From NCBI GenBank assembly GCA_017519145.1, contig JAFWTA010000023.1, positions 62,001 to 126,000 on the forward strand: a DNA stretch of 64,000 nucleotides, written 5' to 3'. Made by a program: the position numbers and the translations under genes. The notes beneath the pieces were generated by a model. That model was not told the origin of the DNA and ran no database searches. It saw only the letters and a list, made by a program, of their open reading frames with translations. This DNA comes from Ruminococcus sp. (GTDB taxonomy: Bacteria > Bacillota > Clostridia > Oscillospirales > Ruminococcaceae). The first letter of the stretch is position 1. Each line of letters starts with the position of its first letter. Positions 8,160 to 37,344 of the stretch are shown piece by piece.

Positions 8160-9158
8160 TCAGAGCATTACCGAGTCTGTATATGGAGTCTCGATCTTTA
8201 CAGGGGCACCTGCCGCTGTAGTTACCATGCTGCACATTTCACACTGTCTCAGGTGTCTTGCTTTCAGCTCCGCAGCTTCGCTGCCGATAAAATCCAACAC
8301 GGATCTTTCCATAGCTTCAGGCCATGCTTTTTCATACAGCTGTGCATAATCGGCAATATCTCCCGAATAAAGCCGTTTCATTGGCATACTTGAACGGTAC
8401 TTTTCGGTATTGCTCTCATCATCTCTCATGCAGCTTAGATGTGGCTGCCAGATAACATCTCCGGCAGGATCGGTCAGTATGAGATTGCCGCCATCGGTAT
8501 CTATTTTCAGATCAAAGAAAAGAGCAAGTGAAGAGTCGATATTCTCGGTATATTCATTGTAATAATCGAGGAAATAGGGGATACCGTTTATCTCTCCCGT
8601 TATCACGGACATTGCTCCGTCGGCAGCTTTTTGTGCTGTAAAGGACTCCGCTCCGCCTGCAGCACTGTAAAGCACATCCATCAGCGGATAAAGCACCTGC
8701 GAACTGCAGCTCATGCGGCAGCGAAGGACCTTTCTTTCCGCCCGAAGCTTTTCTGCATAAGCCAGAAACTCATGTACCCCGGGAAGGTATCTGTAGAAAT
8801 TGTTGACTGCATATTTTACGTCATCTGCGGCGGCAGAGATAAGGTCCCTGACCTCAAGGTGATGGACAGGCTGCTCCTGAAGTACGGATATGCCGTTTTT
8901 CAGCAGCTTTTTTACGGTTGAGGAGCTTCTTCCGCCTGTTATCATCGATCTGGCAGCCATAATGACAACATCCGCGTCTTTTATCTCATCGGCGTCGGTG
9001 TAGAGGGGGATGTTGTACTGCTCGGATATCCTGCGGCTTTTTTCGCTTCCCTTGGAAAGGATGCCGCATAAAGCCAGTTTATCGCTGCGTTCGATGGCTT
9101 TTATGTAAAAGCTGCCGAAATTCACACCGCATACCACTGCATTTATCTTTTCACTCAT
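8160..9158 (-). CDS. Thiazolinyl imide reductase (Irp3/PchG/YbtU-type)
   Basis: 332 aa from the ATG at 9158, whose A is also the last base of the TGA of the upstream thioesterase gene (TGATG coupling); a GTG one codon earlier is also possible. The N-terminus has a Gfo/Idh/MocA Rossmann fold (AVVCGVNFGSFY, residues ~8-19) and the family's QEQPVHHLEV motif near residue 96. Members reduce one enzyme-bound thiazoline ring to thiazolidine with NADPH during yersiniabactin and pyochelin assembly, acting in the cytosol on the carrier-tethered chain. It is the last gene of the ~21-kb NRPS operon, which fits a tailoring role. The presence of this enzyme is a strong indication that the product has at least one reduced thiazolidine ring. 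Confidence 0.85.
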   Translation of the reverse strand: MSEKINAVVCGVNFGSFYIKAIERSDKLALCGILSKGSEKSRRISEQYNIPLYTDADEIKDADVVIMAARSMITGGRSSSTVKKLLKNGISVLQEQPVHHLEVRDLISAAADDVKYAVNNFYRYLPGVHEFLAYAEKLRAERKVLRCRMSCSSQVLYPLMDVLYSAAGGAESFTAQKAADGAMSVITGEINGIPYFLDYYNEYTENIDSSLALFFDLKIDTDGGNLILTDPAGDVIWQPHLSCMRDDESNTEKYRSSMPMKRLYSGDIADYAQLYEKAWPEAMERSVLDFIGSEAAELKARHLRQCEMCSMVTTAAGAPVKIETPYTDSVML

Positions 9159-9913
9159 CACTGTACCTTTCCGACAAGTCTCTGATTGATCAGGTCGCAG
9201 ATCTCTTTTTTCTGTGTATCAACGAAGAAATGACCGCCCTCACGGATCTCGAGTCTCATTTCGCCATTGGTGACATCCTGCCACTGCTTTGCCTTCTCAT
9301 AGTCAACAGTATGATCTTCCTTTCCGTAAAGGACATCAAGGTCGAGTGAAAGCTTGTCGTGCTTGCGGTAGATGAATGTGTCAAGCATTTTGCAGTCCGC
9401 TTTCAGAAGCGGAACATAGTATTGCAGGAACATTTCACTCTGAACTATCTGCTCATCGAACATACCAAGACCAACGAGGTATTCCGTGATATCGTTCTTT
9501 GCGTCCTTCTGCGGGAATTCAACAAGTGAATCCCTGAGGTATTGGGGAGCCTCGCTTGATGCAACGAGTCCCCAGAGCGGTTCCTTGCCTGTGAGCTCCT
9601 TGACTCTGACGGCTGCTTCATAGGCAATTACCGCACCTCCGCAGTAACCGAAAAATGCATAAGGCATACTGAAAAGCTCCAGATTATCGTTTACAAGGTC
9701 CTCGATAAACTTATCGAAGGATTCTTCCATGGGGTCCTTTCTTCTCACTTCACGCTCGGGATAAAGAATGGGGATAAGGTTGACAGAGGGATCTACCAGT
9801 TTCTTCCATGTTGCAAAGCTGCTTGCGCTTCCTCCCGGGAAAGTGAAGCAGAAAAGGTTTATCTTGTTGTTCTCGTCCATTCTTTCATGGGCTATCCATT
9901 TGCTTTTATTCAT
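9158..9913 (-). CDS. Type II thioesterase, cysteine-nucleophile variant
   Basis: 251 aa; good ribosome site AAGGAGAT before the ATG. It has the alpha/beta-hydrolase fold of GrsT/YbtT-type editing thioesterases. The nucleophile elbow reads FFGYCGGAV with Cys91 where most relatives have Ser (GHSxG); the acid is likely in DLDVLYGKED and the base is His228 in GGHFF. It is closely similar along its length to the thioesterase half of the TE-PCP protein at 13249-14313, so the two probably arose by duplication. Known roles of the family are removal of misprimed units or chain release. Cys-type thioesterases can transfer rather than hydrolyse, so a release/cyclisation role is possible here; that is inference. 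Confidence 0.8.
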   Translation of the reverse strand: MNKSKWIAHERMDENNKINLFCFTFPGGSASSFATWKKLVDPSVNLIPILYPEREVRRKDPMEESFDKFIEDLVNDNLELFSMPYAFFGYCGGAVIAYEAAVRVKELTGKEPLWGLVASSEAPQYLRDSLVEFPQKDAKNDITEYLVGLGMFDEQIVQSEMFLQYYVPLLKADCKMLDTFIYRKHDKLSLDLDVLYGKEDHTVDYEKAKQWQDVTNGEMRLEIREGGHFFVDTQKKEICDLINQRLVGKVQ

Positions 9914-9928
9914 TTTGATATCTCCTTA

Positions 9929-12900
9929 TCATATGTTCAGAGCCTGAGCCATGAGCCTTATGGTCGGGCACTCATAAACCTCGGGAAGTGTGAGCTTATA
10001 GCCAAACCTGTTTTCAAGTTCGGTTATCAGCTTAACTATCATGACAGAGTCTCCGCCGCAGTCAAAGAAATTCTCGTCGGCTCCGATATTGTCGGTATTG
10101 AAAATGCTGCACCATACCTCGAAAATGTTCTTTTCGGTCTCTGAAAGGTCGGTGTCACAGCTTGTATTGTTTTTCTTCTCGTCAATAAGCTCTGCTGCCA
10201 TTTCGCCAAGCGCCTTGACGTCGACCTTGCCGTTCTTTGTGAGGGGGATCGCGTCAAGATACTTATAGAAGGAGGGCACCATATATTTAGGAAGCTTCTT
10301 TGAAAGAGCCTCGTCGAGAGTGTCCCTGTCGGGGAGGGAAGCGCCGTTCTCGGGAACGCAGAACATAACTATATGCACTGAGCCGTTATGATCGGCAGCG
10401 ATGACCTTCAGATCCTTTGGACTGAGAATGTCGTTTACAGCAGACTCTATCTCTCCCAGTTCAACTCTGTGACCTCTTATCTTTATCTGGAAATCCTCTC
10501 TGCCCTGAAACTCGATATTACCGTCAGGCATATATCTTCCTATGTCACCTGTGCGGTAGAGACGCTCGCCGAGCTGTTCGGAATAAACGAACTTTGCATC
10601 GGTAAGCTCCTTATCTCCGAGGTACTCAAGGGCAAGTCCCTTGCCTGCGATGTAAATGCTGCCTGTTACCCAGTCGGTAAGAGGCTGGAGCTTTTCGTCC
10701 AGAATATAGAAGCGCTGATTTGCAAGAGGCTTTCCGTAGGGGATGCTCCTTTCGTAAACCGCATCAGGATCAATAGGATAGTAAATGGACCAGATGGCTG
10801 CCTCGGTAGCACCGCCCAGACTTATGCTCTCGGAATTCGGGAAGCACTTCTTTATATCAGCAGGCAGGTCGGTGGGGATCCAGTCACCTGAAAGCAGGAC
10901 CAGTCTGAGTGAATCTATGGTTTTTTCCTGCTCGCCGTCCATGAACATGGTGAGCATCTTCATCTGCGCAGGTACACTGTTCCATACGGTTATCTTTTGT
11001 GTGCGGACAAGCTCGAGCCAGTGTGAGGGATCCTTTGCAAGACTCTCTGTAGCCTGTACGAGCTGAGCACCTGCATAGAATGCTCCGAAGATATCATATA
11101 CGGAGAGGTCAAATCCGAGATTAGCAAGTCCCAGCAGATGATCCTCTGAGGTGATGTTCCAGCGCTGGTTTATATCGAGGATAGTGTTTGAAGCTGCCTC
11201 GTGGGAAATGACCACACCCTTTGGAGTGCCGGTGCTGCCTGATGTGAAAATAACATAAGCAGGGGATGAGAGTCCCGGAGCATCGGGGATTATCTCTGTA
11301 TCGTCAAGGTCGGCTCTTTCCAGCTTTGTAATGTCGATCTTCTGCGTGATGCCGTCGCTGATATAATCATATTTTTCAAGCAGTATATACTTTGTGCCCG
11401 AGGTTGTGATGATCTTTTCCGCTCTTTCGGAGGGCTGATGTACGTCCAGAGGCAGGTATGTACCGCCGAGAGTAAGTATAGCCAGTACAGCGGCGATCTG
11501 CCATACTCCCTTGGATATGGACAGTGCAGCCAGCTCGCCCTTGCGGAAGCCAGCGTCGCTGAGCGCTTTTCTCAGTGTGACCGTATATGCAGCCAGTTCG
11601 CGGTATGAATAGGTAACTCCGCTGTTGTAAAGCGCGGGGGCATCGGGAGTTTTTTCAAGACTTTTCAGGAAGCCATCATAGAGGTAAGTTGCTTCGATAG
11701 GCTGATCGGTGCTGTTGGTCTCGAGCCTTACCTGCTTTACTCGCTGAGGAAGCTCTGTAAATATCCTGCTTTTCAGCCCCTCCGGTGAAGCAAGACGGAT
11801 AACATTACTGCGGAATATTTCAAAAGCATTATCTATGAGTCCCTCGGGGAATACTCCCTCGCGGACGTCCCAGTTCACGCGCAGTCTGCCGTTTACTTCG
11901 AGCACCTGACAATCTATGAGCACCTGAGGAGTCATGCTGATGGTGTAGAGAAGTCTTCCCACACGGTCTATCTCCGTATTCATCGCACCGAGAGTACTTG
12001 TGAATACCGCAGGCACAACGATCTCTCCGTGGGTATGTCTGCTAAGCTCTCTCAGTACCTCTGTACCCGAAAAAGCATTGTGTCCCAGATCCTCCCAGAG
12101 CCTTGACTGGAGTGCCTTTGCCTCATCGAGATAGGTCTCATAGCCTTTGTCCTCGGCAGCGAGGATACTTGCGATGGTGAAGTCACCGATGACCTTTTTG
12201 ATATCGGGGTGGATCTCGGGTCTGTCGGACATGGTGACATCTATGCAGAACGACTTGTTTGCAGAGATAGCTCTGAGAGTCTCTACATAAGCCGTTAGCA
12301 CAAGATTTGAGGGAGTTACCTTTTCGCTCCTTGCGGTTTCGCAAAGGCAGGTGTATACATCGTTTTCAATGAAAAACAGGTGCTGTCTGAAAAGCACGTT
12401 ATCGTTGCTGACGGTGCCCAGTACGGGAAATACGGGAGCAGATGGCATTGTTTCTGTCTTTTCGAGCCAGTACTCCTTATCCTGTTCGTATTTGCGGATA
12501 CCCTCGGCAGTCTTTTTGAGGTTCTCGCGGTGTATTACTATATCTCTGAATGTGAGATCGGTAGTTTCGGGCTTTTTCCTGTTATAGTAATGATCCTCGA
12601 ATTCATCGAAAATAAGGTTGATGCTGACGAAGTCGGCAATAAGCATATCCAGAGAAAAATGCAGCATAAACCTGTCCTTCAGCACGGTCATTTCAAGATC
12701 GAACTGAGGCCATGTTCCTGCGGGATACTGCTTCAGAGTAAGCTCGGTGCGCTTGTCCTCAAGGTATTTCTCTGCCTCATCCTCGCTCATGGAGCTGATA
12801 TCCGTCAGCTTTACCGCAGGGACAGTATATTCCCTGAGCACCCTCTGTACTCCCTTTGATTCGATGACAGCGTGGAGCATTTCGTTCTGCTTTATGACCT

Positions 12901-13249
12901 TTTCCCAAGCTTCCTGAACCTTTTCATGATCCAGCTCATCAAATTCAAACTCGGAATATATCTTGCAGTTCGTTCCGCCGTATTTGTAAAGAGAATCCTG
13001 TCCTACAAGGTAGGATGACTGGATGTCGGTCAGCGGAAATTCATCGTAGATATGCTCCTTATCAATGATAACATCATTGTCGCTGTGCTTTGACAGATAC
13101 TCGATAATGCGTGCCTTGTTTTCTTTCAGTACTGCCTTGTCATCTTCTGTGAGCGTACCCTTCGGTGCGCTGAATTTCAGCTTATCTCCGTTAAGAGAAA
13201 GCTCAACGCCTTTCTGTCTGTATGACAGAAGTAACTCTTCAATGCTCAT
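9929..13249 (-). CDS. NRPS module: TubC-type docking, Cy, A (Cys), PCP
   Basis: 1106 aa. Residues 1-55 match the TubC-type N-terminal docking domain. Residues ~70-490 are a heterocyclisation (Cy) domain with DMLIADFVS (D201, D206, S209), the DxxxxDxxS motif that replaces HHxxxDG, and the TPQVLIDCQ motif. Residues ~520-1000 are an adenylation domain (TSGSTGTPKG, FDLSVYD, VWNSVP, GGATEAAIW, NGKVD). Read by position the pocket is D-L-Y-N-L-S-L-I-W-K, the cysteine code. The carrier domain ends the protein with CGGDS, Ser1068 being the phosphopantetheine site. There is no C-terminal thioesterase, so release must be in trans. The start overlaps the preceding stop (TAATG), showing translational coupling. 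It is predicted to add and cyclise the third cysteine. Confidence 0.9.
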   Translation of the reverse strand: MSIEELLLSYRQKGVELSLNGDKLKFSAPKGTLTEDDKAVLKENKARIIEYLSKHSDNDVIIDKEHIYDEFPLTDIQSSYLVGQDSLYKYGGTNCKIYSEFEFDELDHEKVQEAWEKVIKQNEMLHAVIESKGVQRVLREYTVPAVKLTDISSMSEDEAEKYLEDKRTELTLKQYPAGTWPQFDLEMTVLKDRFMLHFSLDMLIADFVSINLIFDEFEDHYYNRKKPETTDLTFRDIVIHRENLKKTAEGIRKYEQDKEYWLEKTETMPSAPVFPVLGTVSNDNVLFRQHLFFIENDVYTCLCETARSEKVTPSNLVLTAYVETLRAISANKSFCIDVTMSDRPEIHPDIKKVIGDFTIASILAAEDKGYETYLDEAKALQSRLWEDLGHNAFSGTEVLRELSRHTHGEIVVPAVFTSTLGAMNTEIDRVGRLLYTISMTPQVLIDCQVLEVNGRLRVNWDVREGVFPEGLIDNAFEIFRSNVIRLASPEGLKSRIFTELPQRVKQVRLETNSTDQPIEATYLYDGFLKSLEKTPDAPALYNSGVTYSYRELAAYTVTLRKALSDAGFRKGELAALSISKGVWQIAAVLAILTLGGTYLPLDVHQPSERAEKIITTSGTKYILLEKYDYISDGITQKIDITKLERADLDDTEIIPDAPGLSSPAYVIFTSGSTGTPKGVVISHEAASNTILDINQRWNITSEDHLLGLANLGFDLSVYDIFGAFYAGAQLVQATESLAKDPSHWLELVRTQKITVWNSVPAQMKMLTMFMDGEQEKTIDSLRLVLLSGDWIPTDLPADIKKCFPNSESISLGGATEAAIWSIYYPIDPDAVYERSIPYGKPLANQRFYILDEKLQPLTDWVTGSIYIAGKGLALEYLGDKELTDAKFVYSEQLGERLYRTGDIGRYMPDGNIEFQGREDFQIKIRGHRVELGEIESAVNDILSPKDLKVIAADHNGSVHIVMFCVPENGASLPDRDTLDEALSKKLPKYMVPSFYKYLDAIPLTKNGKVDVKALGEMAAELIDEKKNNTSCDTDLSETEKNIFEVWCSIFNTDNIGADENFFDCGGDSVMIVKLITELENRFGYKLTLPEVYECPTIRLMAQALNI

Positions 13250-14313
13250 TATATTTCTCCCTCATCAGTATAATTGTCTTTTATCTCGTCCTTTTGCTTG
13301 ATAAGCTCGTCAATGCAGCTTCCCAGCGCTCTGATCTCGCCGCAGCCGAAAACATCGGTGATCTTCAGCTCAACATCGTATATCCTGCGGATCTCGTTTA
13401 TCAGTCTGACTGCTTTCAGTGAATCTCCGCCTGACAGCAGGAAGTCACTGCTCCCTGTAAAGCCTGTTTTGCCGAAGATCTCCTCCCATATGCCTATGAT
13501 AGCCTTTTCGGTCACGGTAAGCTCTCTGCTGTCGGGAACGCTTTCCTTGAATACAGCTTTTCTGCCCGATGCAGATAATCTTTCGTTCAGCCGTGAGAAT
13601 ATGTATTCTTTCTGGCTGTCAACAAGGAAGTGACCGCCGTCCCGTTCTATGATGCGTGTATTGCCGCTTGTGAGCTGATCCCAGCGCTGTGCCTTTTCCC
13701 TGATGACCTTGGGGTCATCAGGGCATATAATAACATCAAGATCACAGCCGAGCTTATCATGCCCGTGGAAATCATAGGAGTCCAGCAGGTCGTGATCGGC
13801 GGTAAAAAGCGGCTTGTAGTAATCCAGAAACACCTTGTCGTGCAGAGTTTTTTCGTCAATGAACGGAAGTGCCGAAAGGTGCTCGAAGAATAGACGTTCT
13901 CTGTTTTCGTCGGTGAGCTTCGGCACCGATTCATGCAGGAATTCGGGAGCCTCGCTGGATATTATCATGCCGTACTCGGGCTCGGTGCCGTAGAGCTCCC
14001 TGACCCTGACTGCGGTTTCATATGCTATCACAGAGCCGCTGCAATAGCCGAAGAATGCGTATCTGCCGCGGAAGATATCCTCCAGCGACACCGCCAGATC
14101 CTCCACAAATGCCTGCATATCCTTGTACATCGGCTCTTTACGGCGTTTTTCACGCACGGGATAAAGAATTGGTATCAGGTCGATATCCTCATTGAGAGAA
14201 TACTTCCACGCTGAAAAATAGCTTGCACTGCCTCCGTCAAATATAAAACAAAGCAGCGATAATTTATTGCCTTCTGTCACGTTTTCGTGAGCGATCCATT
14301 TATTTGCTTTCAT
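13249..14313 (-). CDS. Thioesterase-carrier protein fusion (TE-PCP), cysteine-nucleophile variant
   Basis: 354 aa. Residues 1-245 are an alpha/beta-hydrolase thioesterase with FFGYCSGSV (Cys91 in the nucleophile position), an acid in CDLDVIICPDD and a base in GGHFLVD. Residues ~265-345 are a peptidyl carrier domain with LSGGDSL, Ser298 being the attachment site. TE before PCP is the reverse of the normal end-of-line order. The gene lies between the two NRPS genes and is coupled to the downstream Cy-A-PCP gene (TAATG), so the carrier may relay the chain from the dimodular protein to the TubC-docked module. Possible roles are cyclase/transferase, proofreading unit or relay; the sequence cannot separate these. 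Confidence 0.8.
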   Translation of the reverse strand: MKANKWIAHENVTEGNKLSLLCFIFDGGSASYFSAWKYSLNEDIDLIPILYPVREKRRKEPMYKDMQAFVEDLAVSLEDIFRGRYAFFGYCSGSVIAYETAVRVRELYGTEPEYGMIISSEAPEFLHESVPKLTDENRERLFFEHLSALPFIDEKTLHDKVFLDYYKPLFTADHDLLDSYDFHGHDKLGCDLDVIICPDDPKVIREKAQRWDQLTSGNTRIIERDGGHFLVDSQKEYIFSRLNERLSASGRKAVFKESVPDSRELTVTEKAIIGIWEEIFGKTGFTGSSDFLLSGGDSLKAVRLINEIRRIYDVELKITDVFGCGEIRALGSCIDELIKQKDEIKDNYTDEGEI

Positions 14314-27227: not shown

Positions 27228-27437
27228 TCAATCAAAAAGCTCTGCAAACTGAGCAATGGTCTCACGTTCGTAAAAATCTGCGACTTCGGCAGTTTTGCCA
27301 GTTCTGTCTTCAAGCTCGGCTATTACCTGAGCAGCGGAAAAGGAATTGCCGCCGAGGTCAAAGAATGACTCGTTCTCGTCAGGCAGCTCCTCGAGCTCCA
27401 GTATTTCTTTCCATATTTCTCTGAGTGTTTCTTTCAT
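27228..27437 (-). CDS. Free-standing peptidyl/acyl carrier protein
   Basis: 69 aa with AAAGGAAAGG upstream. A complete carrier fold: IWKEILELEELPDENESFFDLGGNSFSAAQ, with the phosphopantetheine serine in GGNS. It is closer to NRPS carrier domains (LGGNS) than to fatty-acid ACP (DSLD). It sits between the saccharopine-dehydrogenase-like gene and the two condensation-like genes, implying an acyl or aminoacyl group is processed on it in trans. No dedicated adenylation enzyme adjoins it; the aryl ligase or an NRPS A domain could load it. Confidence 0.85.
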   Translation of the reverse strand: MKETLREIWKEILELEELPDENESFFDLGGNSFSAAQVIAELEDRTGKTAEVADFYERETIAQFAELFD

Positions 27438-28656: not shown

Positions 28657-29412
28657 TCATTTACTGCTTGGTATACCTAAAGACAGAAGTATCTTCTCTC
28701 TTATAAGTCTGATGACGTTTTGTTCCTCATCTCCGTAAGGGAAGAAATGATTTCCGCTGAATTCGTATCTTTCAAAATCCGAGGATGTTACCTTTGACCA
28801 TTTATCCACGATATTTCCGTCAGCATCGGAGTCTTCACTGCCGTTGAACGCAGTTATTGGTATATCGAGGATCTCGCCGTTATAGACATATTCTTCATTA
28901 AGCCTGTAATCGTTGTAAATTATGGGGAGAAATACACTGCGGAATGTTTTGTCGGAAAGGAGCTCCTCGCTTTCCATGCCGCACCTTATCAGTTCCTTTT
29001 CAAGTGCATCTATGCCCTGAGAATATCGGAATGATGAGGAAGTTTCCTCGGAGGGGGCGTGACGTCCCGCAGCAAACAGCCGTTCAGCCTTCAGGCCGTA
29101 TCTCTTTTCGAGCTCCCATGCAGTCTGAAAACCAAACAGCGAGCCGAGGCTGTGACCGTAAATGAAAAATGGCTTGGAGTCATTGGCTTCAGCGATAGCT
29201 TGGGTCATATCATCAAGAACGCTTTTGAAAGTGAGCTCGCTTGGGTCGCAGCTCCTGTCGGGCAGCTCCAGAGGAGCCACATCAATGAGCGGAGACATCT
29301 TCATCCAGTTTCTGAAAGTACAGACGCTGCCTCCCGCATGGTGAAAGCAATACAATCTGCATACAGCACCTGTTTTCCCGAGACCGAAAGGGAATATTCT
29401 GTCAAGTTTCAT
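28657..29412 (-). CDS. Type II thioesterase, serine type (first gene of the NRPS operon)
   Basis: 251 aa, with ATAGGAGG before the ATG. LYCFHHAGGSVCTFRNW near residue 20, GHSLGS with Ser88 as nucleophile, an acid in NGSEDSD and a base in GNHFFPYGDEE. It is the second Ser-type external thioesterase in the operon. Four thioesterase-fold proteins in one cluster is high and suggests division of labour between editing and chain release. Its upstream region carries three copies of the TGTTAG palindrome. Confidence 0.85.
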   Translation of the reverse strand: MKLDRIFPFGLGKTGAVCRLYCFHHAGGSVCTFRNWMKMSPLIDVAPLELPDRSCDPSELTFKSVLDDMTQAIAEANDSKPFFIYGHSLGSLFGFQTAWELEKRYGLKAERLFAAGRHAPSEETSSSFRYSQGIDALEKELIRCGMESEELLSDKTFRSVFLPIIYNDYRLNEEYVYNGEILDIPITAFNGSEDSDADGNIVDKWSKVTSSDFERYEFSGNHFFPYGDEEQNVIRLIREKILLSLGIPSSK

Positions 29413-29646: not shown

Positions 29647-29664
29647 GGTTAGCTGTAACTAACT
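29647..29664. promoter_or_regulatory. TGTTAG operator copy 3, abutting the NRPS-operon promoter
   Basis: GGTTAGCTGTAACTAACT, an imperfect copy of TGTTAG(C/T)-N6-TAACA. It begins one base downstream of the -10 hexamer on the minus strand, so bound protein would cover the transcription start. This is the same geometry as at the ECF promoter. Confidence 0.7.
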
Positions 29665-29860: not shown

Positions 29861-31594
29861 TTATAATTTCCAGCTTGCAGCTTTTTGTCTGTCTTCAACG
29901 AATGTGCGATAAATGCCCTGTTTCTGCATGAGTTCGGAATGAGTACCGCGCTGAACGATCTTACCTGCATCGATAACAACTATCTGGTCGGCGTGTTCAA
30001 CGGTTTTCAGACGATGAGCGATCATGATGATGGTTTTTTCCTTGGTGAGCTCCTTTACAGCCTCGGTGAGTTCAGCCTCATTTTCGGGGTCTATATTTGC
30101 GGTAGCTTCATCGAGAATGATTATGGGCGAATCCTTCATTATTGCTCTTGCAATGGAAATACGCTGCTTTTCGCCTCCCGAGAGACTTGCACCGCCCTCA
30201 CCGATGACGGTATCGTAGCCGTCGGGGAGCTGTGTTATGAAGTCGTGGCAGCACGCCTTTTTTGCAGCTTCAATAACTTCGTCCATGGTTGCGTCTGGGC
30301 GTCCGAAGCGGATATTATTGGCAATGGTATCCTGGAACAGGTATACGCGCTGGAATACAAAGCTGAAGTTCTTCATAAGGCTGTCGAAGCTGTACTCCTT
30401 AACATTTCTGCCGCCCAGCAGTACCTCACCGCTCTTTACATCCCAGAATCTCGACATAAGGCTTGTCAGAGTGGTCTTTCCGCCGCCAGATGGACCGACT
30501 ATGGCAGTTGTGGTCTTTTCGGGGATCTTCAGGTCAACACCGTTGATGATATTTCTGTTCTCGTAAGCGAAGGTGATGTTTTTCAGCTCCAGATCGTGAT
30601 TGGCAGGAGTGATCTCCTCACCGTTGATATCCATTTCGGGGATATCGAGAATATCCTGAGCAAGGGTAACTGAGAGGTCGATGCTTCTGATGAGTGCGCT
30701 GTATCCGCTCATCGCATCAAGGCTCTCGTAGATCATAAAGGAGCTTATCATCATCATTATGCAGTAGAGCAGGCTCATAGAGCCGTTGACATAGAAGTAC
30801 AATGCCGCAGCGGACATTACAACTCCCGTAAGCTTGGTAACGATCTCCTGCAAAGTGATGTAGGGGATAACATCATATTCCAGATGGGTGTCTGCGAACT
30901 GCTTTGCCTTTATAGCATCTTCCAGTTTTTTTGCACGGCTCTTTGTCAGATTATAGTTCTTGACCTCAACGATACCCTGAATGAATTCGATAACTGCAGA
31001 TATCATCGCGTTATCGGACTTCTGCTTTCTCGGAGCACTCACTCTTGCCTTTTTCTGCATAAGACCGTTTACAAGAGCGTATAGTGCAATGCCTGCGGTA
31101 AGTATCAGACCTATGCGCCAGTCAAAAACGAAAACGCATATCACCAGAACGAGTGTAGTGAGAACGCTCTGGGTCGTCAGCATGACTATACGCGCCGCAA
31201 CGCCTGCAAGGGCTTCCATGGTATTTGTGGTTACGCTTGTTATATGACCGAGGCTCGTTTCATTGAAATATCCCATGGGAAGATAGCGCAGGTGCTCGGC
31301 TATCTCTATTCTTTTGCTTGTACAGCAGTGATAGCCTGCTTCTGTCTGGAGCATTGTTGTTTTAAGGCTGATGAGCAGCTGTCCCAGCAGCGAGACAGCG
31401 AGTATGATAATGGCGTTCCTTACGGTTTTCATAGTCATATTATCGTCTATGATACCCATTGCAACGACTCCGATGGCACCGATGCGCATTGCAGCGAACA
31501 TCGCCTTGATAACTCCTAAGACTATGGCTTTATAAAGTTTGCTCCTGTCCTCGGACGAACAGAACATAAAGAATTTTTTTAATGTCGAAATCAT
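29861..31594 (-). CDS. Half-ABC transporter, membrane-ATPase fusion (YbtQ/IrtB-like)
   Basis: 577 aa from the ATG at 31594, which has AAAGGAGGGAG and overlaps the preceding TAA (TAATG). A six-helix ABC membrane domain (~20-310) is followed by an ATPase domain: GPSGGGKTT Walker A, LSGGEKQR signature, IIILDEAT Walker B, AHRL H-loop. It pairs with the next gene to make a heterodimer. In the yersiniabactin, mycobactin and equibactin loci such type IV-fold exporter-like pairs (YbtPQ, IrtAB) carry the iron-chelate inward across the cytoplasmic membrane; an export role is the other possibility. No siderophore-interacting reductase domain is fused. Confidence 0.85.
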   Translation of the reverse strand: MISTLKKFFMFCSSEDRSKLYKAIVLGVIKAMFAAMRIGAIGVVAMGIIDDNMTMKTVRNAIIILAVSLLGQLLISLKTTMLQTEAGYHCCTSKRIEIAEHLRYLPMGYFNETSLGHITSVTTNTMEALAGVAARIVMLTTQSVLTTLVLVICVFVFDWRIGLILTAGIALYALVNGLMQKKARVSAPRKQKSDNAMISAVIEFIQGIVEVKNYNLTKSRAKKLEDAIKAKQFADTHLEYDVIPYITLQEIVTKLTGVVMSAAALYFYVNGSMSLLYCIMMMISSFMIYESLDAMSGYSALIRSIDLSVTLAQDILDIPEMDINGEEITPANHDLELKNITFAYENRNIINGVDLKIPEKTTTAIVGPSGGGKTTLTSLMSRFWDVKSGEVLLGGRNVKEYSFDSLMKNFSFVFQRVYLFQDTIANNIRFGRPDATMDEVIEAAKKACCHDFITQLPDGYDTVIGEGGASLSGGEKQRISIARAIMKDSPIIILDEATANIDPENEAELTEAVKELTKEKTIIMIAHRLKTVEHADQIVVIDAGKIVQRGTHSELMQKQGIYRTFVEDRQKAASWKL

Positions 31595-33360
31595 TATGCT
31601 CCCTCCTTTACTGAGATGTGACTGTTCCACATATGCCTGTACAGAGGAGAATTACTGAGCAGCTCTTCCTGAGTTCCGCTGGCTTCCACCTTGCCGTCAT
31701 TGATGACTATTATCTTGTCAGCATCAGCAATAGTTGACAGCCTGTGAGCGATGACCAGCAGAGTTTTGCCTTTTACCAGCTTGGCAACAGAGGACTGTAC
31801 CAGAGCTTCGTTCTCGGGATCGGTATAGGCAGTAGCCTCGTCAAGAATGATAACGGGAGCATTTTTCAGCATTGCCCTTGCAATGGAGATACGCTGTCTC
31901 TCACCGCCAGAAAGATGTCCGCCTGCACCGCCGACAATTGTATCATAGCCTTTTTCCAGCTTCATGATAAAGTCGTGGCATCCGCAGGCTTTAGCGGCAT
32001 TAATAACATCTTCATCGCTTGCTTGGGGATCACCCATACGGATATTATCCATAATCGTCTCGTCGAACAGGTAGTTATCCTGAGAAACATAGGCGATATT
32101 GCGGTTATACTCTTCAAGGGGGATCTTCTTGATATCAACGCCGCCCAATGTGATCCTGCCTTCGTTCACATCCCAGAATGAGGCTATCAGCTTAGCGATA
32201 GTGGACTTGCCCGAGCCGGAAGGACCTACCAGAGCATTGACAGTGCCCTGCTTTATTGTAAGGTCTATACCGTGAAGAATTTCCTTTTCCTCATAGCCGA
32301 AGTGTACATTTTCGAGGATGATATCCGAGCCGCTGAGCTTTTCGGTCATTGACTCGGGACGTACAAGCTCTTCGCGCTCAAGTATCTCTGTGACTTCGCC
32401 GATTATCAGTCCCATTTTTGAGATGTCATCGGAATAGGATGTAACAGTGTTTATCGGAGCTATAAGGCTCAGCGAAAGGATCACCAGCATAAGCAGGTCT
32501 CCGCCCGATACATTTCCGTGCATATATTCAATGGCGCCGAATGGGAGAAGTCCCAGCAGGAAGAACGGCATAAGGATGAGAGCCAGATTCTGCCACAGAT
32601 TGCATTTTCTCATCCATTCGATGTAGCAGGATGCGCATTCTTTTGCAGCGTTTGCAAATTTCTCATAGGAGCTTCCCGACTTGCTGAAAGCCTTTATGAC
32701 CTCGATACCGTTTATGTATTCGACAGCCGAATCGTTCAGGGCTTTTGTCTTGGTGATGGCGTCACCGTAGATGTTTTTACTTGCAGCCATCATGAAAATG
32801 AAGAACACCGCACCCACAGGCACACACAGCATAGAGAGGAGCGTGAGTTTTACATTGATGGTGAGCATATAGATTATAAGCACGATAGGCACGAGTATAC
32901 CTGCGCCCACCTCGGGGATGATGTGTGCAAGTGTGGTCTCGATGGAGTCAACACGCTCGCAGATTATGTTCTTGTAGGTACCGCTGGAATCAGCCATTAC
33001 CGAGCCCAGCGGGAGTCTTGAAAGCTTTTCCGCAAGTCTTCGGCGGATATTTGCAAGGACAACAAAGGATGTTGCGTGTGAGATGGTGGTCGATATAGCG
33101 TGACTGATCTTGCTCAGCACCCAGAAAACGGCCATCATGATGATATCCTTAGTGAAATCGTCCATTTTGGGGACTTCACCCGACTGGTGCAGCTCCAGCA
33201 CCTTTTTTACTATATCCGCCATGTAAATATACGGTACCATACTGCAAACTACTTTTGCTATCGCAAAAATAATGCTGAGGATATAGTATGATTTTTTTTC
33301 TTCTGCGAACTCGACCAGCCAGCTGGTCAGGGAACGCTTTTTCTTCGCCTTTTCAGACAT
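31594..33360 (-). CDS. Half-ABC transporter, membrane-ATPase fusion (YbtP/IrtA-like)
   Basis: 588 aa. A membrane domain with about six helices (~35-320) then an ATPase with GPSGSGKST, LSGGERQR, VIILDEAT and AHRLST. It is translationally coupled to the partner gene by overlapping stop and start. It is first of the two-gene unit and has its own operator at 33385-33402, 25 bp upstream of the ATG, so it is co-regulated with NRPS synthesis. The inferred role is transport of the metallophore or its metal complex. Confidence 0.85.
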   Translation of the reverse strand: MSEKAKKKRSLTSWLVEFAEEKKSYYILSIIFAIAKVVCSMVPYIYMADIVKKVLELHQSGEVPKMDDFTKDIIMMAVFWVLSKISHAISTTISHATSFVVLANIRRRLAEKLSRLPLGSVMADSSGTYKNIICERVDSIETTLAHIIPEVGAGILVPIVLIIYMLTINVKLTLLSMLCVPVGAVFFIFMMAASKNIYGDAITKTKALNDSAVEYINGIEVIKAFSKSGSSYEKFANAAKECASCYIEWMRKCNLWQNLALILMPFFLLGLLPFGAIEYMHGNVSGGDLLMLVILSLSLIAPINTVTSYSDDISKMGLIIGEVTEILEREELVRPESMTEKLSGSDIILENVHFGYEEKEILHGIDLTIKQGTVNALVGPSGSGKSTIAKLIASFWDVNEGRITLGGVDIKKIPLEEYNRNIAYVSQDNYLFDETIMDNIRMGDPQASDEDVINAAKACGCHDFIMKLEKGYDTIVGGAGGHLSGGERQRISIARAMLKNAPVIILDEATAYTDPENEALVQSSVAKLVKGKTLLVIAHRLSTIADADKIIVINDGKVEASGTQEELLSNSPLYRHMWNSHISVKEGA

Positions 33361-33384: not shown

Positions 33385-33402
33385 TGTTACTATAAGCTAA
33401 CA
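33385..33402. promoter_or_regulatory. TGTTAG operator copy 4 (half-ABC promoter)
   Basis: TGTTACTATAAGCTAACA (minus: TGTTAGCTTATAGTAACA), with perfect TGTTA/TAACA arms. It lies between the tetR terminator and the half-ABC start codon. Confidence 0.75.
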
Positions 33403-33409
33403 TATGCTC

Positions 33410-33435
33410 AAAAAATATTGGCATTAAATGCCAAG
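33410..33435 (-). terminator. tetR terminator overlapping its stop codon
   Basis: Minus strand TTGGCA-TTTAA-TGCCAA followed by TATTTTTT. The TAA of tetR lies in the loop. It implies the half-ABC genes use their own promoter. Confidence 0.65.
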
Positions 33436-34041
33436 TATTTTTTTCCATCCTGCCGAGAAAAACTCATCCAGCGTATCGGCATAGTGGAGTGCCTGTTCTT
33501 CGGTAAAATCATGCTTTACCGCTTCATACATAGCCGAAACGTTAGCTGTGACCAGCATATGGAACTCCAGTCCCGAGACCTCTCTGACTGACATATCATA
33601 CTCATCGAGTTTGTCAAAATACTCTGCGTCAAGTTTTTCTTCCATAAGCGCCATATCGTGAATGAAATTCTCATATCTTGTTCCCTGCGAGCGGCATATC
33701 AGCAGCTTGAATACATCGAAATGCTTATAAATGAAACTCATGATCCAACGGGTCTTGTTTTCGGCATTGAGCCATGCCTGTTCATTTGCCATGGTTCTGA
33801 GGCGTTCGTATTCCTTTTGGCTGGCAATGTCGTAAAGCTCTCTCAGCTCACAGAGAGTCGGCTCGACCAGCGAGGCGAACATTTCCTCTTTGTTTTCAAA
33901 ATGCCTGTACAGAGCGCCAACAGTTATGCCTGCATCGGCAGCGATCTTTCTCATAGAGGCATTTTCAAAGCCCTGTTCCATGAATTCTTTTTTTGCAGCA
34001 GCGACTATCTTCTTATTGTTCTCACTTTTATCTCTCGGCAC
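33424..34041 (-). CDS. TetR-family transcriptional regulator
   Basis: 205 aa from the GTG at 34041, eight bases after AGGAGG; a TTG one codon and a GTG three codons earlier are less well placed. The helix-turn-helix (residues ~10-50: IVAAAKKEF…ASMRKIAADAGITVGALYRHFENKEEMF) is typical. The C-terminal ligand domain is unassigned. The gene lies between the half-ABC exporter/importer and the ECF importer of the metallophore island. Two matching 15-bp sites flank its promoter (34065-34079 and 34124-34138), suggesting it controls itself. These differ from the TGTTAG sites at the metallophore promoters. Confidence 0.85.
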   Translation of the reverse strand: MPRDKSENNKKIVAAAKKEFMEQGFENASMRKIAADAGITVGALYRHFENKEEMFASLVEPTLCELRELYDIASQKEYERLRTMANEQAWLNAENKTRWIMSFIYKHFDVFKLLICRSQGTRYENFIHDMALMEEKLDAEYFDKLDEYDMSVREVSGLEFHMLVTANVSAMYEAVKHDFTEEQALHYADTLDEFFSAGWKKILGI

Positions 34042-34064
34042 CAATCTCACCTCCTGATTTTTTA

Positions 34065-34079: not shown

Positions 34080-34089
34080 GAACGACTCT

Positions 34090-34118: not shown

Positions 34119-34123
34119 GGTAT

Positions 34124-34138: not shown

Positions 34139-34223
34139 TAAAAATTTGTTTTTTACTAATATATATGCACTGCTGTGATATGAAAATCAAATAGTGCAAT
34201 GTTCATTCCCGTAAAGCTTTATT

Positions 34224-34241
34224 AGTTAGATACAACTAATA
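34224..34241. promoter_or_regulatory. TGTTAG operator copy 5
   Basis: Minus strand TATTAGTTGTATCTAACT, a diverged copy. It also lies inside a perfect ATTAGTT-N6-AACTAAT repeat (34221-34240). A weak minus-strand TATTAT adjoins it, so it may serve a second promoter reading toward tetR. Confidence 0.5.
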
Positions 34242-34470
34242 ATATATGCCTGTTCAGAGCTGTATAACGTCTGAATACTTAACATACAGTGGGCAGTTTT
34301 TTCGGTATCAATTGGTAAGGTCACCCGTAAAAGTTCAGGTCGGGCTTTTAGTCATAGGGGGTCTGAACCGACGAATTATAGGGAAGAATAATGCCGGTGC
34401 AATTATGCCGCCGCAACAAATTGTATAAAAAAAATATATGGCAAAATAATAGCTTGTTCTTATTCAACAA
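34242..34470. other. Non-coding stretch between tetR and the ECF operon
   Basis: There is no open frame of note. I see only AT-rich sequence and no hairpin with a T-tail. Promoters and operators at the two ends are listed separately. Confidence 0.5.
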
Positions 34471-34499
34471 TTGACAAACAAAAATCATTATGATATAAT
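34471..34499 (+). promoter_or_regulatory. Promoter of the ECF operon
   Basis: TTGACA (34471-34476), 17-base spacer, TATAAT (34494-34499): full consensus. The operator at 34505-34522 begins five bases downstream. Confidence 0.85.
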
Positions 34500-34504
34500 T
34501 CTAA

Positions 34505-34522
34505 TGTTATACAATACTAACA
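34505..34522. promoter_or_regulatory. TGTTAG operator copy 6 (ECF promoter)
   Basis: TGTTATACAATACTAACA (minus: TGTTAGTATTGTATAACA), with perfect arms. It covers the predicted transcription start of the ECF operon, a classic repressor position. Confidence 0.8.
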
Positions 34523-34539
34523 TAAATGGAGGAAATAGT

Positions 34540-35130
34540 ATGAAAGAAAACAAACTCAAAGCAAAGGACTTTATCACGATAGGTATTTTTACCGCGCTGG
34601 TATTCGTAGTGGAATTTGCTTATATGATGCTTGGATTTATCCACCCCTATGTGATATTATCATATGCAGTGGCTATACCCGTATTATGTGCCATCCCCAT
34701 GATGCTCTTTTACACTAAGGTAGAGAAGTTCGGCATGATTACAATAATGTCTGTTCTTATCGCGATAATCATGTTCGTAACAGGCATGGGCTGGATAGGA
34801 GCTCCGCTGATTATCGCAGCAGGCGTCATTGCTGACCTTATAGCTAAGAAGGGCAACTATAAGAGCTTTAAATCAACAGTTCTCAGTCATGGCGTTTTCT
34901 GCATCTGGGTAGGTGCAAACTATATCCCGCTTGTTGTAACTGCTGACGATTACAAGCAGGATATGATAAAGGGCGGCTTTTCCGAGGATTACTGCAATAC
35001 CCTTTTCAATGCTGTTAACGGCAAGACCATAGCACTTATTCTTCTTTGCTGTTTTATTTTCGGAGTTGTGGGAGCATTCATCGGCAAGGCTGTGGTAAGA
35101 AAGCACTTTGAAAAAGCAGGAATAGTATGA
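34540..35130 (+). CDS. ECF transporter substrate-binding S component (MptD/Trep_Strep family)
   Basis: 196 aa from the ATG at 34540, which follows TGGAGG; a longer frame back to 34471 would run through the promoter and is rejected. About five to six hydrophobic helices (ITIGIFTALVFVVEFAYMMLGF, VILSYAVAIPVLCAIPMMLF, IAIIMFVTGMGWIGAPLIIAAGV, IALILLCCFIFGVVGAFIG) fit the Trep_Strep S components. It binds the imported substrate in the membrane. Related ECF modules accompany equibactin-type loci, so the substrate may be a metal or the metallophore complex; this is inference from context and from the shared operator. Confidence 0.8.
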   Translation: MKENKLKAKDFITIGIFTALVFVVEFAYMMLGFIHPYVILSYAVAIPVLCAIPMMLFYTKVEKFGMITIMSVLIAIIMFVTGMGWIGAPLIIAAGVIADLIAKKGNYKSFKSTVLSHGVFCIWVGANYIPLVVTADDYKQDMIKGGFSEDYCNTLFNAVNGKTIALILLCCFIFGVVGAFIGKAVVRKHFEKAGIV

Positions 35131-35831
35131 GAAAGTTCGGACTTGATCCGCGTACAAAGCTGTTCATGATCTTTGCCATTTCGCTTATCGTTATGGTAAA
35201 TTCTTCCAATCCGCTGCAATGGGGGATACGCATACTGGTAACGGTCATTCCTATTATACTGATGATGCTTGAGGGGAAATTTGCGGCAGCAATTCGTTTT
35301 GCTGTACTTTATGCTGTTGCGGTGCTGCTGCAGATCTTTTTTCTGTCATCGGAGTCAAGCGGCATGATTTCAGCCTTGATAACAGGCTATTGCAGTATAT
35401 TTGCACAGTTTATGCCTGCAATGATAACCGCGTGTTACGCTATCAGGACCACAAAGATAAACGACTTTATGTCGGCAATGCAGAAAATGCACGTTCCTGA
35501 CAGTGTTTCCATATCGCTGGCTGTTGTAATGAGGTTCTTCCCGACTATCAAGGAAGAATACGGATATATAAATGACGCCATGCGTATGAGAGGTATTGCC
35601 ATGGGCGGCGGAAAGGTGAGCAAGATGGTGGAATACCGTCTTATTCCCGTCATGTTCTCCTGTGTGAATATAGGAGAGGAATTGTCGGCTGCGGCAGTTA
35701 CCAGAGGCCTTGGCGCACCGATAAAGCGTACAAGCGCCTGTGAACTCAGACTCACAGCTATGGACTATATAACTATGGCGGTGTTTGTATTATTGACGGC
35801 TGCATTCTTTGCGTCGAAATATATCGGGTGA
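35127..35831 (+). CDS. ECF transporter transmembrane T component (EcfT/CbiQ family)
   Basis: 234 aa, starting within the stop of the S-component gene (ATGA overlap). It begins GLDPRTKLFMIFAISLIVMV, typical of EcfT, has several membrane helices, and carries the coupling-helix region RFFPTIKEEYGYINDAMRMRGI that contacts the ATPases. It is the energy-coupling membrane scaffold between the S component and the fused ATPase next door. Confidence 0.88.
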   Translation: MRKFGLDPRTKLFMIFAISLIVMVNSSNPLQWGIRILVTVIPIILMMLEGKFAAAIRFAVLYAVAVLLQIFFLSSESSGMISALITGYCSIFAQFMPAMITACYAIRTTKINDFMSAMQKMHVPDSVSISLAVVMRFFPTIKEEYGYINDAMRMRGIAMGGGKVSKMVEYRLIPVMFSCVNIGEELSAAAVTRGLGAPIKRTSACELRLTAMDYITMAVFVLLTAAFFASKYIG

Positions 35832-35838
35832 TGTACAT

Positions 35839-37344
35839 ATGATAAGTATTAAAGATGTGAACTTTTGCTACAAGGGCTCACAGGAGGCAGGCCTTCATGA
35901 CTTCTCCCTTGATATCGGCGAAGGCGAGGCGGTACTGCTCTGCGGCGCATCGGGCTGCGGCAAGACCACTATACTCCGCCTTATAAACGGACTCATCCCA
36001 CACTACTATAAAGGCGAGCTTGAGGGAAGCATCAGCGTAAACGGCAGGAACGTGCCTGAAAGCGAGCTCTATGAGCTGGCAAGCGTTGTGGGCACAGTTT
36101 TCCAGAATCCCAGAAGCCAGTTCTTCTCAGTGGATACGGACGGCGAGATCAATTTCGGAAACGAGAATTTAGGACTTGCTCCCAAGGAGATAGTCAGAAG
36201 AAAAAAAGAAGTTGTCAGCGAGCTTGATCTTGAACCTCTGCTCGGGAAAAGCCTGTTTGAGCTCTCGGGCGGGGAAAAGCAGAAGATAGCCTGCGCAGGA
36301 GTATCTGCACTGATGCCTGATATAATGCTGCTTGACGAACCCTCCTCAAACCTCGACTGGAAAGCTATCGGCGAGCTGAAAGAAGTCATAAAATGCTGGA
36401 AAGCCAAGGGCAAGACCATAGTTATCTCGGAGCACAGGCTCTGGTATGTGAAGGATATCGTTGACAGAGTCATATTCATGAAAGACGGCAGGATAGAACA
36501 TCAGTGGAACAAGGAGGAGTTCGGCAGCCTTACGGCGCAGGAGCTCTGTTCCTACGGACTTCGTCCTACCTCTGTGGAAGAAAAGTATATCAAGGAATTC
36601 GGAGACGGTATTTTTTCAGCGGATGATAAAACGGAAAATGGCAGTATCGAGCGATATGAGAACAGTATCACTCTGAAGGATATGTTCTTTACCTATGATA
36701 TACCGAAATACTTTTTTAAGAAGAAAAAGCTGAATGCAGCCGATTCGGCTGATTACACTCTGGCAATACCCGAGCTTGAACTTCCCCGCGGAAAGGTCAT
36801 CGGACTTATCGGCAGGAACGGTGCAGGAAAAACGACGTTCCTGAGGTGTATCTGCGGACTTGAAAAGGACTGTACACTGAAGATAACTGCCGATGGCGAT
36901 ACATTATCCGGAAAGCGCATTATGAAAAAGTGTTATATGGTAATGCAGGATGTGAACCATCAGCTGTTCACGGACAGCGTAAGGGCAGAGGTAATGCTCT
37001 CTATGGATGATGAGGATAAGGAAAAAGCCGACAGTATCATAGGTGATCTCGGACTTAGCGGATATGAGGAAACTCATCCCATGGCTCTGTCGGGCGGACA
37101 GAAACAGCGCGTAGCCATCGCGTCCGCACTTGCGGCGAACAGCGAGATACTGCTTTTTGACGAGCCCACTTCGGGTCTTGACCGTGCGCACATGACAGCG
37201 GTCGCGGAAATGCTGGCTGAGCTTGCAAAGGACAACAGGGTAGTTATCGTATCGACCCACGATCCCGAGCTGATCTCTCTTTGCTGCGATTATACGCTGT
37301 GCATTGAAAAAGGCAGGCTGAAGTACCTGAGAAAATGTCAGTAA
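35839..37344 (+). CDS. ECF transporter fused double ATPase (A components)
   Basis: 501 aa from the ATG at 35839; an in-frame TTG at 35809 overlaps the T gene and is less likely. Two ABC ATPase domains are joined: the first has GASGCGKTT (residues ~36-44), LSGGEKQK and LLDEPSS; the second has GRNGAGKTT (near 330), LSGGQKQR and LFDEPTS. A single protein therefore replaces the usual EcfA/EcfA' pair. It is the last gene of the three-gene importer; a terminator follows at 37365. Confidence 0.9.
   Translation: MISIKDVNFCYKGSQEAGLHDFSLDIGEGEAVLLCGASGCGKTTILRLINGLIPHYYKGELEGSISVNGRNVPESELYELASVVGTVFQNPRSQFFSVDTDGEINFGNENLGLAPKEIVRRKKEVVSELDLEPLLGKSLFELSGGEKQKIACAGVSALMPDIMLLDEPSSNLDWKAIGELKEVIKCWKAKGKTIVISEHRLWYVKDIVDRVIFMKDGRIEHQWNKEEFGSLTAQELCSYGLRPTSVEEKYIKEFGDGIFSADDKTENGSIERYENSITLKDMFFTYDIPKYFFKKKKLNAADSADYTLAIPELELPRGKVIGLIGRNGAGKTTFLRCICGLEKDCTLKITADGDTLSGKRIMKKCYMVMQDVNHQLFTDSVRAEVMLSMDDEDKEKADSIIGDLGLSGYEETHPMALSGGQKQRVAIASALAANSEILLFDEPTSGLDRAHMTAVAEMLAELAKDNRVVIVSTHDPELISLCCDYTLCIEKGRLKYLRKCQ

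Follow-up and report, generated by a model that had tools for sequence, protein, structure and literature searches.

We analyzed a 64,000-nucleotide stretch of Ruminococcus sp. DNA (the window, G000:C29:62001-126000; genome size 3.17 Mb, assembly 94% complete), in which positions 8160-37344 carry an apparent metallophore gene cluster of the equibactin family. With a probability of about 0.8, we regard this cluster as most likely devoted to iron and as organized in three metal-repressed units: a TetR-type regulator gene with two half ATP-binding cassette (ABC) transporter genes (TetR-ABC2-ABC1), a 12-gene biosynthetic unit, and the S, T and A genes of an energy-coupling factor (ECF) importer. 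Each of the three units has sites related to GTTAG-N6-CTAAC at its beginning or close to it. The cluster is largely intact and represents a known family rather than a new class, and both family membership and the regulon lend good support to its reading as a metallophore cluster. The metal-type chelator proposed in the initial annotation is consistent with both the regulon and the gene families, and the genes named there were all present, open and contiguous, as judged from open reading frames (ORFs), Pfam and motifs.

The cluster resembles the equibactin locus (eqbA-N) of Streptococcus equi ICESe2, as far as its published account goes (PMC3672683), in having an aryl ligase, an HMWP2-like nonribosomal peptide synthetase (NRPS) with an epimerase (E) domain, an imide reductase, a second module with a cyclization (Cy) domain, a saccharopine-dehydrogenase-family protein (EqbM), a type-II thioesterase (TE), an importer (EqbHIJ), a YbtPQ-like pair (EqbKL), three cysteines, neither a polyketide synthase (PKS) nor a salicylate synthase, and the operator core GTTAG-N6-CTAAC. 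For the transporters and EqbM this likeness is at the family level, Eqb sequences not being part of the comparison; in our reading, EqbHIJ is an ECF transporter of the window's kind. The equibactin-type features found in the window comprise the ligase with a start module of aryl carrier protein (ArCP), Cy, adenylation (A) domain with E insert and peptidyl carrier protein (PCP), three Cy domains and three cysteines with no PKS, the reductase, the importer plus ABC pair, the EqbM-like gene and the operator. A methyltransferase (MT) and a TE in the second NRPS and an in-cluster phosphopantetheinyl transferase (PPTase), which are also eqb features, were absent here; being variable among 15 relatives, they were not counted as defining. 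Where equibactin has a single A domain, the window has three; its second NRPS lacks the MT and TE that EqbG has, and it adds a pair of TEs with a Cys nucleophile (one of them joined to a PCP), two condensation (C) domains and a free carrier (PMC3672683). Its ligase code has Asp rather than Cys, a TetR gene but no DtxR gene is found in the cluster, and the PPTase is decayed.

Similarities were also observed with yersiniabactin (Irp2/HMWP2, YbtU, YbtPQ) and pyochelin (PchE), with which the cluster shares the ArCP-Cy-A(E)-PCP start and thiazoline reduction; PchE, Irp2, YbtU and YbtPQ chains were among the solved relatives of cluster proteins. Unlike these systems, the window has no PKS module and no salicylate synthase, and it combines an ECF importer with a Gram-positive setting. 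The idea of a new chelator class does not stand: an aryl group plus three cysteines, with no polyketide and the same transporter set, was proposed for equibactin in 2008 (PMC3672683), and similar clostridial clusters, described as equibactin-like siderophore clusters and likened here by description rather than by sequence, have been published for Clostridium kluyveri (CKL_1504-1523) and C. difficile RT023 (023_CTn1) (PMC3672683, PMC6814731). Among the literature matches listed, all from one library, none dealt with a Ruminococcus cluster of this kind.

Two uncultured Ruminococcus metagenome-assembled genomes (L009 and L010), obtained by a scan of contigs, were the closest named relatives that we found. 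An imide reductase search of 199 relatives gave five other same-genus genomes and three weak matches; four of the five were kept and the fifth (G044) was dropped before counting. Together with TIGR01761 matches over cut-off in 8 of 391 genomes of a class sample and 1 of 398 of a phylum sample, the total was 15 clusters or part-clusters. One family of such clusters is carried by this gut Ruminococcus and its relatives within the class. Within the limits set by contig ends and the extent of fetched DNA, the imide reductase was present in all 15 relatives, as was NRPS1 (14 if a 206-aa stretch in G094 is left out), followed by NRPS2 (14), ABC2 (14, weak or cut in G045 and G094), ABC1, ECF-S, ECF-A (weak in G256) and the saccharopine-dehydrogenase family (12 each), ECF-T (11), aryl ligase (10), TE2 (7), and TetR and PPTase (6 each). 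Comparison of the 12 biosynthetic genes and ABC1/2 with L009 or L010 gave ratios of nonsynonymous to synonymous substitution rates (dN/dS) of 0.013-0.120 for 25 of 26 gene pairs, with dS near saturation throughout and saturated for the free carrier in L009, which has no value. All 14 tested genes are, by this estimate, under purifying selection. In the dropped genome, the imide reductase (L028 3257-4167) is split over two frames with no other cluster gene seen in the 25 kb contig, and is probably a decayed remnant.

The domain order first proposed for the two synthetases, ArCP-Cy-A-PCP-Cy-A-PCP and Cy-A-PCP, was recovered with Pfam and motifs, NRPS2 having an additional TubC_N domain. On motif reading, DxxxxDxxS occurs in all three Cy domains, and the carrier Ser is kept in ArCP and in all five cluster PCPs. 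A-domain codes, read off the translations with a PchE alignment as guide and compared with Table 1 of PMC3672683, were DLYNMSMIW for A1 (the HMWP2 pattern) and DLYNLSLIW for both A2 and A3, by which all three are predicted to be Cys-specific. No PKS module was detected by Pfam among the cluster proteins. A codes and Pfam support an assembly line of the aryl-thiazoline/thiazolidine type in which three modules load Cys and no PKS takes part. The insert in A1 has a methyltransferase fold; we read it as a PchE/HMWP2-type E domain because S-adenosylmethionine (SAM) motif I is degenerate here (VGARN instead of a glycine-rich form) and is not glycine-rich in the NRPS1 inserts of relatives, nine of which show [AT]-R-[DN], with G104 and G010 deviating but likewise lacking the glycine motif. 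Methyltransferases located in NRPS2 of relatives or fused to their reductase do have glycine-rich motifs. An active methyltransferase in NRPS1 was ruled out by the degenerate motif, and no methyltransferase with an intact SAM motif was seen in the cluster.

In the proposed pathway, the ligase would, judging from domain families, load an exogenous aryl acid onto ArCP, after which Cy1-A1(E)-PCP and then Cy2-A2-PCP would add and cyclize two cysteines. Short acidic tails end both NRPS1 (DEDEFEI) and the TE-PCP fusion (TDEGEI); four distant NRPS1 homologs end in EEGTL, EEGTI, VEGTI or TEGEL, L099 and L025 do not have such ends, and L091 and L106 are cut. The tails of NRPS1 and TE-PCP may serve as ligands for the TubC_N domain of NRPS2. 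The NRPS1 tail would dock on NRPS2, which would add and cyclize the third cysteine, and the imide reductase would reduce one ring. This reductase, also named initially, is present although its TIGR01761 score (178.2 bits across nearly the full length) falls just under the NCBIfam cut-off of 188.8; YbtU/Irp3 were its only relatives found among solved structures. For the saccharopine-dehydrogenase-family protein, a search of solved structures gave two repetitive chains at E ~0.003, which were taken as chance. AlphaFold models of this protein (pLDDT 41.8) and of the stand-alone condensation domain Ca (pLDDT 47.9) were too poor for fold search.

The metal link of the cluster has a basis in sequence, because its operator is the core of the EqbA palindrome and further sites lie at feoB, ZIP and flavodoxin genes. 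The shared operator noted initially can now be made exact: GTTAG-N6-CTAAC occurs six times in the 64 kb (one exact site and five with one mismatch), always in cluster gaps. This compares with 1.13 sites expected, none of 100 shuffles reached six, none of 2,000 Markov shuffles of the cluster gaps did so, and the arm ranked first of 1,024, with 6 sites against 3 for the runner-up; the motif was framed from the window palindrome and the promoters of loci in the two closest relatives (L127 and L128), so that this window test is not an independent one. Around the 15 related clusters, 25 exact sites were found and none for the control; 23 of the 25 are intergenic, and 20 lie in the 13 genomes that were not used for framing the motif. 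The whole genome contains 11 exact sites, one of them in the cluster, against 0 for the reversed control. Exact sites are situated just upstream of feoB, a ZIP transporter gene, another Trep_Strep ECF S gene, an FtsX-type ABC exporter, a GNAT gene and a DUF2325-DUF3793-flavodoxin group, with a further one between a putative enolase gene (named from its sequence start) and the DUF2325-DUF3793-flavodoxin group; no target gene was assigned to the sites on C20, C28 and C57. Dense sites on C37 (positions 6283, 6805, 14154 and 15011; L138) accompany feoB, DUF2325, DUF3793, flavodoxin and FtsX ABC exporter genes, and this locus is the probable core of an iron-type regulon. Flavodoxin is known to be under iron control. 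In a genus sample of 60 genomes, 204 exact sites were detected, with at least one site in 49 genomes. By sequence alone, the operator ties the cluster to iron-type genes, and it widens the reach of the EqbA operator, which the 2008 account set apart from other iron boxes (PMC3672683), to a genus-wide regulon.

EqbA was reported to be a DtxR-like repressor without an SH3 domain that shares a Cys with DtxR; its operator is centered on GTTAG-ATGTAT-CTAAC, its binding required that palindrome, and it responded to Fe2+ and Zn2+ and less to Mn2+ (PMC3672683). The Ruminococcus genome encodes one Fur-family protein and two short DtxR-family proteins, of which the 148-aa one on C16 has C-x2-E-H at the position of IdeR. 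We infer that the C16 protein reads the palindrome. A short DtxR-family repressor of the EqbA kind would bind the operators with Fe2+ and release them under metal starvation. No classical Fur box was found in the window at up to 3 mismatches, and a DtxR-like box, TTTAGGATAACCTAAA, present in L127 and L128, was absent from the window at the same threshold.

Several observations weigh against the iron metallophore reading. Of the 10 exact sites outside the cluster, only those at feoB, ZIP and DUF2325-DUF3793-flavodoxin genes point independently to iron or metal; those at the Trep_Strep ECF gene, the FtsX exporter, the GNAT gene and C37:6283, and those on C20, C28 and C57, have no such pointer. 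The reversed control still gave 28 sites across the same 60 genus genomes, and five of the 15 relatives (G010, G094, G579, G341 and G313) had no exact operator in the fetched DNA. The DtxR protein is tied to the operator by inference only, TetR being the sole regulator within the cluster. No route to the aryl acid substrate was found in the genome search, and the in-cluster PPTase is decayed, so that two other PPTase-superfamily genes in the genome would need to act in trans. To our knowledge, no product structure has been settled in the equibactin family, because equibactin itself was deduced and not seen by liquid chromatography-mass spectrometry (LC-MS). Its existence was concluded from iron uptake and cross-feeding, both LC-MS and a chrome azurol S (CAS) assay for chelation having been negative in the published account (PMC3672683).

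The place of TetR raises the question whether this local protein is the main regulator and GTTAG-N6-CTAAC its operator, with metal having no direct part. Its homologs in six relatives and the operator copy between TetR and ABC2 fit such a role. However, copies of the motif are spread over the genome, with sites beside feoB, ZIP and flavodoxin genes, and the EqbA palindrome has the same core (PMC3672683). In addition, the presence of the motif in most genus genomes at well above control frequency contrasts with the only five other same-genus genomes given by the reductase search. We therefore consider regulation by TetR instead of metal quite unlikely.

With regard to the starter acid, the window shares the ligase code N-F-D-A-Q-G-V-I with L009 and L010. 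At code position 239 (GrsA numbering), these three have Asp, and the other nine aligned ligases have Cys (6) or Asn (3); the salicylate-type hallmark, Cys at 239 as in YbtE/PchD/EqbD, is thus missing from the window ligase. No salicylate synthase was found, the single chorismate-binding enzyme in the search of the 94% complete assembly being TrpE (522.8 bits, over cut-off). Because of the Asp pocket and the finding of TrpE only, salicylate is neither clearly the ligase substrate nor evidently made by this genome. The description of the island as complete was in this sense overstated, given also that the PPTase gene of the two closest relatives is a remnant here. The loss of the PPTase and the lack of an aryl-acid synthase would suit a cluster that is silent or dying in this strain, an account that we find improbable in view of the 14 tested genes, which are open and constrained, and of the two other PPTase-superfamily genes (on C20 and C63). 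S. equi likewise has no salicylate synthase and uses supplied salicylate, which it needed as an addition to defined medium (PMC3672683).

Several parts had not been included in the initial annotation: a 69-aa free carrier, a TE-PCP fusion and two tandem C domains, besides the saccharopine-dehydrogenase-family gene and TetR. Thioesterases had been noted, and they are indeed present, but there are four, two of which have Cys instead of Ser (GYC[GS]G), one of these being fused to a PCP. The nucleophile is Cys in 8 of 8 TE1-like rows and Ser in 14 of 14 TE2/TE3-like rows. TE1-like Cys-TEs, Ca-like C domains and the free-carrier type co-occur in the same 4 of 15 relatives (G964, G965, G104 and G423) and are found together in none of the other 11 as fetched. 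G964 and G965 are the close relatives of the window, so that the set occurs in three lineages counting the window's. In G104, a protein combining the TE with a C domain precedes a free carrier and another C domain; in G423, C-C-PCP form one protein adjoining a Cys-TE. These fusions and the co-occurrence argue for one functional cassette. CmaE and SyrC, two carrier-loading proteins of other systems, use a Cys nucleophile. The cassette can be likened, without sequence comparison, to the LgnA, CmaE, SyrC and CysB shuttles, TE-II-like or AT-like proteins that load a carrier in trans (PMC8748450, PMC7966384). In legonmycin biosynthesis, LgnD is a C-T-C protein whose A-less T domain is loaded in trans by a type-II TE, an arrangement resembling the free carrier (PCPs) with Cb and Ca, although the LgnA nucleophile is Ser and that of TE1 and TE-PCP is Cys (PMC8748450).

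In the equibactin-family scheme, the chain would leave NRPS2, which has no terminal TE, via these separate parts (TE1/TE-PCP, free carrier and both C domains). Most likely, they would pass an acyl or aminoacyl group to the A-less carrier, to be joined by an ordinary amide, or would release the chain as an amide. The three cysteine units initially predicted agree with the three Cys-loading modules but may be an undercount, two extra carriers and two C domains having no role in that count. The product may contain more than three Cys units because Cys-TE, two C domains and A-less carrier recur together in relatives, in which case module counting would mispredict it. Tentatively, and at clearly less than even odds, we propose that the conserved trans cassette extends an aryl-(thiazoline)3 chain, begun on a non-salicylate starter, by another unit in amide linkage. 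This would constitute a new metallophore subclass in gut Ruminococcus, with expression from an EqbA-type iron box that is shared across the genus and would control feoB as well.

A simpler product, aryl-(Cys)3 as in the three-Cys model proposed for equibactin (PMC3672683), could be hydrolyzed off by a Cys-thioesterase in trans, with the extra carriers and C domains editing, storing or being lost. The NRPS2 C-termini of relatives speak for this and against a shuttle: among nine that were read, the terminal TE has Cys in five (L089, L092, L090, L022 and L023, those of G010 and G094 being near-identical), Ser in two and no motif in two. Because Cys is thus frequent in terminal TEs, it may mark a chain-releasing TE rather than a shuttle; in EqbG, Ala was reported at the nucleophile position (PMC3672683). 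On the other hand, dN/dS values of 0.046-0.111 indicate purifying selection on PCPs, Ca and Cb, all six Ca/Cb sequences of three lineages retain HxxxDG, and two distant relatives have preserved the cassette, in part as fusions. We give simple hydrolysis somewhat less than an even chance. The free carrier is 91% identical in both L009 and L010. In another related cluster (L093 458-1930, G362), a PCP is fused to a thioester-reductase-type domain (NAD_binding_4), suggesting reductive release there.

Alternatively, the chain, once complete, might be handed to the free carrier and coupled by the C domains to a small free amine, much as the stand-alone C domain OaaC couples fatty acids in gut bacteria. 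A free carrier with a free-standing C domain is indeed the OaaACP/OaaC arrangement (PMC13142362). However, C domains of the fatty acid amide (FAA) type carry (D/H)HxxxDS (PMC13142362) and the six Ca/Cb sequences have (N/I/F)HxxxDG instead, and no stand-alone amino-acid A domain is present in the cluster, making such amide release unlikely.

In transcription order, the biosynthetic unit (minus strand) consists of TE3, the saccharopine-dehydrogenase-family gene, free carrier, Cb, Ca, TE2, the PPTase remnant, aryl-AMP ligase, NRPS1, TE-PCP, NRPS2, TE1 and imide reductase, 12 genes in all. TetR, ABC2 and ABC1 follow one another on the same strand, and ECF S, T and A run in the opposite direction to the rest of the cluster (see Table). 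Three promoter-like sites with 12/12 consensus bases and one terminator-like site, all of them consensus matches and thus predicted rather than measured starts, suggest three transcription units. The two outward 12/12 promoter-like sites at 34090-34499 form a 29-nt inverted repeat that is 83% complementary. A riboswitch 5′ of the ECF genes was considered and rejected: no Rfam match was found in the window at the gathering threshold or in 34050-34560 at E up to 5, and the 34240-34500 fold is ordinary (z 0.28).

The YbtPQ-like half-ABC pair and the ECF importer were confirmed at the family level by Pfam, NCBIfam and solved structures. The best half-size solved relatives of ABC2 were YbtPQ entry chains (6p6i/8vsi) and IrtA; full-length eukaryotic ABCB proteins scored above the YbtPQ chains, each of them matching in two stretches. 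In S. equi, import is attributed to EqbHIJ, and deletion of EqbKL did not prevent the small-colony phenotype (PMC3672683); for this reason an importer function of the YbtPQ-like pair cannot be taken for granted, and the pair may act in either export or import. The ECF importer would handle uptake of the metal complex, the function of EqbHIJ in S. equi. For ECF-S, a start at ATG 34540 appears to fit the promoter and operator better than the listed TTG 34471. An ABC exporter pair lies beside the ECF genes in L127 (1642-5148; FtsX/MacB by Pfam) and L128 (1745-5261; judged on size and place), and no such pair is found there in the window.

Table. Features of the cluster, with positions in the window; promoters are given in the direction of reading
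Feature	Position	Strand	Basis
Thiazolinyl imide reductase (YbtU/Irp3/EqbF type)	8160..9161	-	TIGR01761; YbtU 4e-19; dN/dS 0.11-0.12
TE1, type-II thioesterase family, Cys nucleophile (GYCGG)	9158..9913	-	PF00975; nearest solved relative RifR
NRPS2: TubC_N - Cy3 - A3 (Cys code) - PCP; no MT, no TE	9929..13249	-	Pfam, A code, motifs
TE (Cys nucleophile GYCSG) fused to PCP; tail TDEGEI resembles NRPS1 tail	13249..14313	-	Pfam, alignment
NRPS1: ArCP - Cy1 - A1 (E-type stuffed MT fold, as read) - PCP - Cy2 - A2 - PCP	14330..21976	-	Pfam, motifs; solved relatives including PchE, BmdB, Irp2
Aryl-acid AMP ligase, pocket code N-F-D-A-Q-G-V-I	21951..23600	-	Profile match and alignment
Sfp-type PPTase gene remnant in gap	23601..23815		Gene intact in L009, L010
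TE2, Ser type-II thioesterase	23816..24541	-	Pfam, alignment
Ca, stand-alone condensation domain (HLISDG)	24562..25845	-	Pfam, motif
Cb, stand-alone condensation domain (HIITDG), 62% identical to Ca	25920..27206	-	Pfam, motif
PCPs, free-standing 69-aa carrier (GGNS), no A domain of its own	27228..27437	-	Sequence; dN/dS 0.046 vs L010
Saccharopine-dehydrogenase-family oxidoreductase (EqbM family by Pfam family and neighborhood only)	27464..28591	-	PF03435
TE3, Ser thioesterase; first gene of biosynthetic unit	28657..29412	-	Pfam, alignment
Operator copies, 1 mismatch each, in gap 5′ of TE3	29429 and 29490		Motif scan
Operator GTTAGCTGTAACTAAC, exact GTTAG-N6-CTAAC	29648..29663		Motif scan
Predicted consensus promoter, biosynthetic unit	29746-29718	-	TTGACA-17-TATAAT, 12/12 bases; aligns with similar sites in L009, L010
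Terminator-like site 3′ of ABC1	29851-29815	-	Sequence pattern
ABC1, half ABC transporter (YbtPQ/EqbKL-like)	29861..31630	-	Pfam/NCBIfam
ABC2, half ABC transporter	31594..33360	-	Pfam; solved-structure search
Operator copy, 1 mismatch, between TetR and ABC2	33386..33401		Motif scan
TetR-family regulator	33424..34050	-	PF00440; beside ABC genes in L127, L128
Predicted consensus promoter, TetR-ABC unit	34118-34090	-	TTGACA-17-TATAAT, 12/12 bases
Operator copy, 1 mismatch	34225..34240		Motif scan
Predicted consensus promoter, ECF unit	34471-34499	+	TTGACA-17-TATAAT, 12/12 bases; similar sequence in L127, L128
Operator copy, 1 mismatch, between promoter and ECF-S start	34506..34521		Motif scan
ECF S component (Trep_Strep/MptD)	34540..35130	+	TIGR02185, 144.5 bits, over cut-off
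ECF T component (CbiQ family)	35127..35831	+	Pfam
ECF ATPase, two fused ATP-binding domains	35809..37344	+	Pfam, NCBIfam

GC content is 36-40% in the first 8 kb of the window and 44-52% elsewhere in it. Adjoining the cluster, a 2,262-aa protein encoded at 780-7568 on the minus strand has RTX-type calcium-binding repeats and an Mbeg1-like stretch. In addition, a 757-aa protein encoded at 41210-43483 on the plus strand contains ricin-type beta-trefoil lectin domains and is perhaps carbohydrate-binding.

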